Below the pieces are notes generated by a model that was not told where the DNA came from, did not search any database, and saw nothing but the letters and a program-made list of their open reading frames with translations. 64,000 nucleotides of DNA from Clostridioides difficile ATCC 9689 = DSM 1296 (GTDB lineage Bacteria > Bacillota > Clostridia > Peptostreptococcales > Peptostreptococcaceae): contig NZ_CP011968.1 of NCBI RefSeq assembly GCF_001077535.1, positions 3,100,001 through 3,164,000 on the forward strand, read 5' to 3'. Position numbers and translations under genes: made by a program. Below are positions 30,970 to 33,332 of this stretch, piece by piece (within the stretch, counting starts at the first letter, position 1; every line of letters begins with the position of its first letter).

Positions 30970-31995
30970 CTACTTTATAATCATAGCATCTCCAAAACTG
31001 AAGAATCTATATCTTTCTTTTACTGCCTCATTATATGCATTTAAAACATTATCCTTTCCACAAATAGCACTTACTAACATTATTAGTGTAGACTCTGGTA
31101 AGTGAAAATTAGTAATAAGTTTATCTAAAACTTTAAATTTATAACCTGGATATATAAATATTTCTGTCCATCCACTAGTTTCTTTCATCTTTCCATCCTC
31201 ATTACAAGCTGATTCTATAGTTCTACAACTGGTAGTACCAACACATATTACATTTTTTCCATTTTCCTTTGCTCTATTTATTTTGTCAGCTGCTTCTTGG
31301 CTAACCATATAATATTCTGAATGCATCTTGTGATTTAAAACATCCTCTACTTTTACTGGTCTAAAAGTTCCTAAACCAACATGTAGAGTTACAAAGGCTA
31401 TATCTACACCTTTTTCTTTTATTTTATTTAACAATTCTTCTGTAAAATGTAATCCTGCTGTAGGTGCTGCTGCTGAACCATTATGCTTTGAATAAACAGT
31501 CTGGTATCTTTCTTTTTCATCTAGTCTAGCAGTGATATATGGAGGTAGTGGCATATTTCCAAGTTCATCCAATATTTCTTCAAAAATTCCATCATAATGG
31601 AATTTTATAATTCTTGAACCTTCATCTGATAAATCTACAACTTCTCCAATTAGCTTTCCATTTCCAAAAGAAAATTTAGTCCCTACTTTTGCTCTTTTTC
31701 CTGGTTTTACTAAAGCCTGCCAAGTATCTTCCTCTGTTCTTTTTAATAATAAAAACTCTATTTTACCTCCAGTTTCAAGCTTCTCTCCTATTAATCTAGC
31801 TGGTATAACTCTAGTATTATTTAATACTAAGCAATCTCCTGGATTTAAATATTCTATTATATCTCTAAATACTTTATGTTCAATATTACCTGTCTCTTTA
31901 TCTAATACCATCAATCTTGAGCTAGCTCTATCTTCTATAGGAACTTGAGCTATAAGTTCCTGTGGTAAGTCAAATTTAAAATCACTTGTTTTCAA
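30970..31995 (-). CDS. queA: S-adenosylmethionine:tRNA ribosyltransferase-isomerase
   Basis: The 341-residue enzyme transfers and isomerises the AdoMet ribosyl group onto preQ1-tRNA to give epoxyqueuosine. Seen: [21 protein letters not shown] at the N-terminus, [39 protein letters not shown] and [16 protein letters not shown], all family hallmarks. The start is TTG ([11 protein letters not shown]). It is the first gene of the queA-psiE-like-tgt-yajC run, with the DnaA-box-like cluster upstream. Confidence 0.96.
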
Positions 31996-32053
31996 TGTTA
32001 AACTTCCTCTCTTAAAATTTCTCCAGCTACAATAATATCAAAAAAACAACTTA

Positions 32054-32235
32054 TTTTCCACAATATTACCATAATCTATCAAGAAATTGCTATTTTTAAC
32101 AGACACCATATCCACAATATATAGATATTTTTCCACGATATACATGTCTTATCCACAATATATAGATACAATACACACAATTTTTATCGTGTTTATCCAC
32201 AGTATCTACAGATATAATTACCATTTTGTGGATAT
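32054..32235. promoter_or_regulatory. Cluster of DnaA-box-like 9-mers in the queA/ruvB gap
   Basis: Six sites match or nearly match TTWTNCACA: TTTTCCACA at 32054, ATATCCACA at 32108, TTTTCCACG at 32129, TTATCCACA at 32149 and at 32193 (both perfect), and an ATATCCACA in reverse orientation at 32227-32235. A 19-base direct repeat, TATCCACAATATATAGATA, occurs at 32109 and 32150. The 317-base gap has no ORF of note. The sites could titrate DnaA or tie queA-operon transcription to replication state. Confidence 0.6.
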
Positions 32236-32312
32236 GTTTGAATTTTTAGCCATTTTAGAAATATTTTAATTTAATGACTCTTTTATTTTATAAATACTCG
32301 TATAATCTATTT

Positions 32313-33332
32313 TTATTTTTCATTAGGATATGGAATTTTTAAGTGTTCATATGCTAATGGCATGGCTACTCTTCCTCTAGGACCTCTATTTATAAATCCT
32401 AATTGAAGCAAATATGGCTCATATACATCTTCTATTGTATTTCTATCTTCTCCGATAGAAGCTGCCAATGTATCTAAACCCACTGGTCCTCCTCTAAATT
32501 TTTCTATTATAGTCATAAGAAGCTTCTCATCTACAAAATCGAGACCCAAACTATCGACTCCTAAAAGTTCCAGAGCATCTTTTGCCACCTTATCAGTTAT
32601 TTTTCCATCAGCTCTAACTTGTGCAAAATCTCTAACTCTTTTTAGTAATCTATTTGCTATCCTTGGAGTCCCTCTTGAACGTTTTGCAAGTTCTAATGCT
32701 CCATTAGACTGTATCTCTGCATCTAAGATGCTTGAAGACCTAAGTACTATTTTTGAAAGTTCATCAACTGTATAATAGTCCAATTTACAAATAACACCAA
32801 ATCTATCTCTAAGTGGATTTGTAAGCATACCAGCTCTTGTAGTAGCTCCAATAAGTGTAAATTTAGGAAGGTCAAGTCTTATGCTTCTAGCAGATGGCCC
32901 TTTCCCAATTATTATATCTAGGCAAAAATCCTCCATTGCTGGATATAAAACTTCTTCAACACTTCTATTGATTCTATGAATCTCATCTATAAATAAAACA
33001 TCATTTTCATTTAAATTCGTAAGTATGGCTGCCAAATCTCCAGCTCTTTCTATTGCGGGTCCTGACGTAATTCTTAAATTTACCCCCATCTCATTTGCTA
33101 TTATACTTGCTAGTGTAGTTTTTCCAAGACCTGGTGGTCCATATAAAAGCACATGGTCTAACTGCTCATTTCTCGATTTAGCTGCTTCTATAAATATACT
33201 AAGTTGTTCTTTGGATTTTTCTTGACCCAAATAATCTTCTAAAGTTTTTGGTCTTAAACTGTTTTCTATATCTATATCTTCCATCTTCATTGTAGAAGTT
33301 ATTATCCTATTTTCATCTTCAAAACCTTGCAT
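32313..33332 (-). CDS. ruvB: Holliday junction branch-migration helicase RuvB
   Basis: The 339-residue AAA+ motor has Walker [12 protein letters not shown], Walker [11 protein letters not shown], sensor motifs [18 protein letters not shown] and [18 protein letters not shown], and the C-terminal winged helix ([19 protein letters not shown]). It drives branch migration with RuvA. Start ATG behind GGAGGGG. Operon order ruvC-ruvA-ruvB on the minus strand. Confidence 0.97.

Follow-up and report, generated by a model that had tools for sequence, protein, structure and literature searches.

Why does a group of DnaA-box-like sequences lie between ruvB and queA in Clostridioides difficile, far from the replication origin? 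The initial annotation of the window, i.e., the whole 64-kb stretch of DNA that was analysed, had pointed out six DnaA-box-like 9-mers, two of them perfect, in about 180 bases, together with a 19-base direct repeat, and both observations held. The six 9-mers are found in 182 bp of the ruvB-queA intergenic gap (31996..32312; 317 bp, 24% G+C), which contains the whole cluster. Five of them are on the plus strand, namely box 1 (TTTTCCACA, 32054..32062), box 2 (ATATCCACA, 32108..32116), box 3 (TTTTCCACG, 32129..32137), and boxes 4 and 5 (32149..32157 and 32193..32201), which are the two perfect copies of TTATCCACA. Box 6 (32227..32235) is ATATCCACA in the reverse orientation, on the minus strand, and a weaker possible box, GTATCTACA, adjoins box 5 at 32202-32210. 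The consensus TTWTNCACA is matched exactly by three of the boxes. The direct repeat is exact: its two identical copies, both on the plus strand, consist of box 2 (32109..32127) or box 4 (32150..32168) from the second base, followed by the extension ATATATAGATA, and a third copy (79%) is located at 32194-32212. The tetramer RTAT directly follows all five plus-strand boxes on their 3' side. The helical phasing of these five boxes (p = 0.037) is weak support for a DnaA array, and is suggestive only.

The gap is bordered by ruvB (32313..33332, minus strand), which is preceded on that strand by ruvC and ruvA and is the upstream neighbour of queA (30970..31995, minus strand), with tgt and then yajC downstream of queA. 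These six genes were typed with NCBIfam; the other ORFs of 27-38 kb were listed only. The dnaA gene, also identified by NCBIfam, is at the start of contig C1, 978 kb from the cluster in a genome of 4.15 Mb, in agreement with the earlier statement that no dnaA or origin is near. The cluster is similar to oriC1 and oriC2 of C. difficile in its box consensus and AT-rich setting, but unlike them it has no DnaA-trio and is far from dnaA. A relic or minor origin, or a set of plasmid-like iterons, would fit the direct repeats, the AT-rich DNA and the box steps of 20-21 bp and 44 bp. However, the neighbours queA, ruvB, ruvA, ruvC, tgt and yajC argue against it, and a search of the gap with six trio-like hexamers gave 0 matches, whereas oriC2, located after dnaA, carries an 18-base core of the trio published for C. 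difficile (match at L070:1495). We regard this explanation as very improbable.

To compare the cluster with chance, strict sites were defined as those with no more than one mismatch to TTATCCACA. The gap contains five, while 3000 dinucleotide shuffles of the 317-bp gap gave a mean of 0.22 and a maximum of 3. With the looser motif, TTWTNCACA allowing one mismatch, seven sites were counted, a number reached in 2 of 1000 shuffles. The window as a whole has 28 strict sites, and every other 190-bp stretch in it has at most two. The objection raised in the initial annotation, that equally dense clusters might occur in many AT-rich gaps, found no support in either the window or the shuffled sequences, none of which reached five. 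The boxes of the gap (five strict sites and TTTTCCACG) thus form a group of some 300 bp at most, away from oriC, that exceeds chance.

The genome-wide counts were made against the patterns read backward, an imperfect null, as the short words that make up the control may themselves be favoured on other grounds. Against this control, no excess was detected for the single perfect TTATCCACA (65 vs 96) or for TTWTNCACA (696 vs 680), so that single boxes are not enriched. Two-box direct patterns also gave no excess (13 vs 15 and 11 vs 15), and the opposed-box patterns gave 4 vs 6 and, for a second pattern, 5 vs 1; the two-box direct patterns served to list places, not as a genome-wide test. On the other hand, the 65 perfect boxes include six neighbouring pairs no more than 60 bp apart, against 0.06 expected for random places. 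The three-box pattern was found four times in the own genome vs once for the control, and 19 vs 8 times in the eight genus genomes, where 15 of the 19 matches are this locus and four are a second element. In 63 genomes of other genera its count was far below the control (5 vs 25); the same pattern also finds the dnaA region in the relatives G017 and G018. The signal is clustering, in longer chains and close perfect pairs, and not box number.

The conservation of the cluster was analysed in 71 genomes of the family, 68 of which gave a match in a DNA search with the region. The ruvB-queA gap was measured in 60 of them (eight genomes were left out, as were three stretches without ruvB, one being that of G031), and the box count took 55 of these gaps, five gaps of 1.6-1.7 kb being set aside. 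All eight genus gaps are 315-317 bp long with four or five strict sites each, so the cluster passed the conservation check that the initial annotation had named. In the other genera, strict sites are absent from 44 of the 47 short gaps (9-339 bp); two gaps have a single one, and L043 has three in a degenerate form. None of these 47 contains a cluster of comparable strength. The test with the looser motif covered the gaps between 60 and 400 bp in length, eight from the genus and 39 from other genera (47 in all), with 300 shuffles each. The ten lowest values (p from 0.003 to 0.013, uncorrected) belong to the eight genus gaps and to L042 and L043, and the next is p = 0.076. L042 (G032) and L043 (G033) come from one other genus and have four and six loose sites, respectively, in the ruvB-queA gap; the third member of that genus, G031, has a 926-bp gap with other content, which was left unscored. 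Box enrichment upstream of queA is seen in two genera, and is weaker in the second. A scan of contigs with QueA gave 80 loci, none titled Clostridioides, which entered the 200-bp box count only; the best of them (L173) has three sites.

Within the genus, the conservation is concentrated on the boxes and the promoter side of the gap. Over the eight species, 2 of 54 columns are variable in the boxes, 30 of 128 in the linkers, 3 of 58 on the promoter side and 24 of 77 on the ruvB side (boxes vs linkers, Fisher p = 5.6e-4), and no indels occur between boxes 1 and 6 in the genus genomes. Boxes 3, 4, 5 and 6 are unchanged in all eight species, box 2 is ATATTCACA in one, and box 1 is TTTTCTACA in three. 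These results support a genuine DnaA-box cluster that is conserved in the genus and distant from oriC, and to which DnaA itself would bind.

Two features of the alignment speak against DnaA as the reader of these sites. Box 1, which is TTTTCTACA in three species, stands at the place of a promoter element of many relatives, and the conservation of the 10 bases that follow boxes 2 and 4 is as strong as that of the boxes. In each copy of the ATATATAGATA extension (32117-32127 and 32158-32168), one column of 11 is variable in the eight species; the extension seems to be conserved beyond the need of DnaA boxes alone, and this is unexplained. A different regulator that reads the 19-bp unit TATCCACAATATATAGATA, with the likeness to DnaA boxes incidental, would account for this near-invariance and for the exact repetition of the 19-mer. 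However, only the two copies here match the unit with fewer than three mismatches genome-wide, and with up to three mismatches 20 sites were found vs 14 for the control, so that no regulon is visible. Boxes 3, 5 and 6 are, moreover, conserved without that extension. We consider such a regulator quite improbable.

The initial annotation had overlooked the position of the cluster, immediately upstream of the predicted queA promoter. This predicted promoter (32032..32060, minus strand) consists of a weak -35 element, TGGAAA (32060-32055), a 17-nt spacer and the extended -10 element TGATATTAT, so that its elements are about 37-65 bases before queA. The promoter scan alone shows nothing, as it gave four promoter-like sites vs 3.5 in shuffles. 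The motif TTTGNTATNAT, on the queA strand, was found in all eight genus gaps and in 35 of the 47 short ones from other genera; shuffling gave a mean of 0.24 of 46. In the 20 gaps for which its position was listed, one copy each starts 44-47 bases before queA, and L011 has a second copy at 139 bases. These results make the queA promoter credible. Box 1 overlaps its -35 element, and the other boxes are located near it. In many of the relatives printed, the place of box 1 is taken by a TATAGAAAAA-like promoter element, and therefore box 1 may belong to the promoter and not be a site for DnaA. The stretch from ruvB to queA gave no terminator-like site, and read-through from ruvCAB is accordingly possible.

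The promoter also bears on whether the boxes could be incidental to a small coding gene or to a riboswitch in a leader RNA of queA. A leader transcript from the predicted promoter would not contain boxes 2-6, since the promoter is downstream of them, and in 28-36 kb no Rfam family, preQ1 for example, was found at the gathering score. The point in favour of a small gene is a frame of 60 aa (32087-32269) that is free of internal stops in the eight species. This ORF was rejected as coding: its variable sites are even over the codon positions (10/11/11), and its TTG start is not conserved. Either form of this explanation is hardly credible.

With the cluster directly upstream of the queA promoter and a box over the -35, control of transcription is no less likely than titration. 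Starting from the array, its conservation and its position at a conserved promoter, we infer the binding of DnaA, the sign of the regulation and the titration, and consider it probable that the gap is a genuine DnaA-binding cluster of the B. subtilis type, which tunes queA-tgt and holds some DnaA. DnaA would bind first to the strong boxes at 32149, 32193 and probably 32227, and would spread in the direction of the queA promoter over boxes 3 and 2 (32129 and 32108), which share one orientation. When abundant, it would reach the -35 element overlapped by the box at 32054. Bound DnaA would lower the transcription of queA-tgt according to the DnaA level, and the array would keep several molecules of DnaA from oriC, a role also proposed for the B. 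subtilis clusters. It has been reported that the box-recognition residues of C. difficile DnaA are unchanged, and that the purified protein acts on oriC in vitro (PMC7561715).

In B. subtilis, the regions outside oriC that DnaA binds most strongly in vitro are described as intergenic clusters, with 4-11 sites in 300 bp, and several of the genes beside them appear to be repressed by DnaA (PMC4447404). Like the clusters at ywcI-vpr, gcp-ydiF, trmE, ywlC, yqeG-sda and yydA, the present one brings several boxes together in some 300 bp of intergenic DNA distant from oriC; such clusters are often beside a promoter, with a few per genome. It differs from them in its locus and its host, and DnaA binding and its effect are here predicted. 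As in the DnaA-repressed promoters of ywlC, vpr and trmE-noc, the boxes are at the promoter region, but the target would be queA-tgt and the promoter is a predicted one. The initial annotation had likened the cluster to datA and DARS as well as to the Bacillus clusters; the latter comparison is apt, while the former gained no support from the tests run. Like E. coli datA and DARS, the array is a DnaA-box cluster outside the origin. DARS2 depends on Fis. The datA locus is described as dependent on IHF (PMC5295017).

If the array only lowered free DnaA, as a reservoir without any effect on queA, the promoter would be a mere neighbour. The same queA -10 motif is present without a box cluster in most of the other-genera gaps measured, a point in favour of this explanation. 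Removal of six B. subtilis clusters together is reported to cause early initiation (PMC5295017, PMC13220808), and the two genomes in which dnaA was located have it at a similar distance (978 kb for G000, 990 kb for G010). In addition, six boxes with one mismatch are found in G002 between two converging genes, a setting in which one would hardly expect a promoter. On the other hand, the 210 bp or so before the predicted start of transcription contain five boxes, and the sixth, over the -35, is intact in five of the eight species. The sole other genus with box enrichment in the gap also has it upstream of queA, and a single array with five or six boxes may count for little beside the DnaA pool. 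The contrast between B. subtilis and E. coli drawn in PMC5295017 further tempers the titration reading. Titration without regulation is, in our estimate, unlikely.

The ruvB-queA cluster is neither unique nor the densest in its genome. Strict sites per 200 bp were counted in the stretches that the pattern searches had pointed to, rather than in a complete genome scan. The count was seven both before dnaA (L076) and at the replicative helicase-purA junction (L071), about 22 kb from dnaA, five in the ruvB-queA gap (L001), four before hpf (L072), four and three in a duplicated element (L077 and L074), and three both ahead of a putative 16S rRNA start identified by eye (L073) and after dnaA in oriC2 (L070). 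The present cluster, at five, is thus placed between the region before dnaA and oriC2.

Several of these places were observed more closely. At L071:2346-2550 (G000:C1 about 4087.35-4087.55 kb), the starts of seven one-mismatch sites fall within 155 bp, in the interval that separates the gene of the replicative helicase from a small ORF adjoining purA, and the cluster is kept in G007, G009 and G010. L073:2130-2213 (G000:C1:146629-146712) has three perfect TTATCCACA about 230-315 bp before the 16S rRNA start read by eye; its 27-base two-box stretch is present in all eight genus genomes, with the context checked in the own genome. Upstream of hpf, the gene for a ribosome hibernation factor, L072:1602-1707 (G000:C1 about 193.6 kb) contains two abutting perfect boxes and two near-boxes, and the same sites are found in G010 (L081). 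A unit of three to four boxes followed by a terminator-like palindrome occurs twice in the genome (L074:1648-1701 and L077:1746-1799), and similar units in other genus members give it the look of a dispersed element. The G002 boxes, six with one mismatch at L084:1447-1600, lie at a convergent gene junction, one gene of which is a spoIIE relative.

The initial annotation knew of no such element at this place, and the literature that we searched on C. difficile DnaA boxes likewise revealed none. Judged by title, the oriC paper was the only one on DnaA boxes in C. difficile among the matches listed, and none of the matches listed for DnaA boxes with queA or ruvB was relevant. Searches on a DnaA regulon or box clusters with Clostridium and titration found none. 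As far as these searches reach, this cluster is undescribed, while its kind, DnaA-box clusters outside oriC, is already known.

A further difference from B. subtilis concerns the YabA family (PF06156), for which no match was found in the whole genome G000, whereas B. subtilis and L. lactis were the matches among 14 control genomes. It is conceivable, if distinctly unlikely, that the conserved clusters at helicase-purA, ruvB-queA, hpf and the rRNA operon form a distributed system that sets the level of free DnaA in Clostridioides, a genus without detected YabA, and ties this level to translation genes. If so, the DnaA level would be linked to queuosine tRNA modification, ribosome hibernation and rRNA. 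Independently of this idea, a conserved cluster at a fixed place offers a concrete, removable element for probing DnaA titration or DnaA-controlled transcription in an organism in which the YabA family was not detected.
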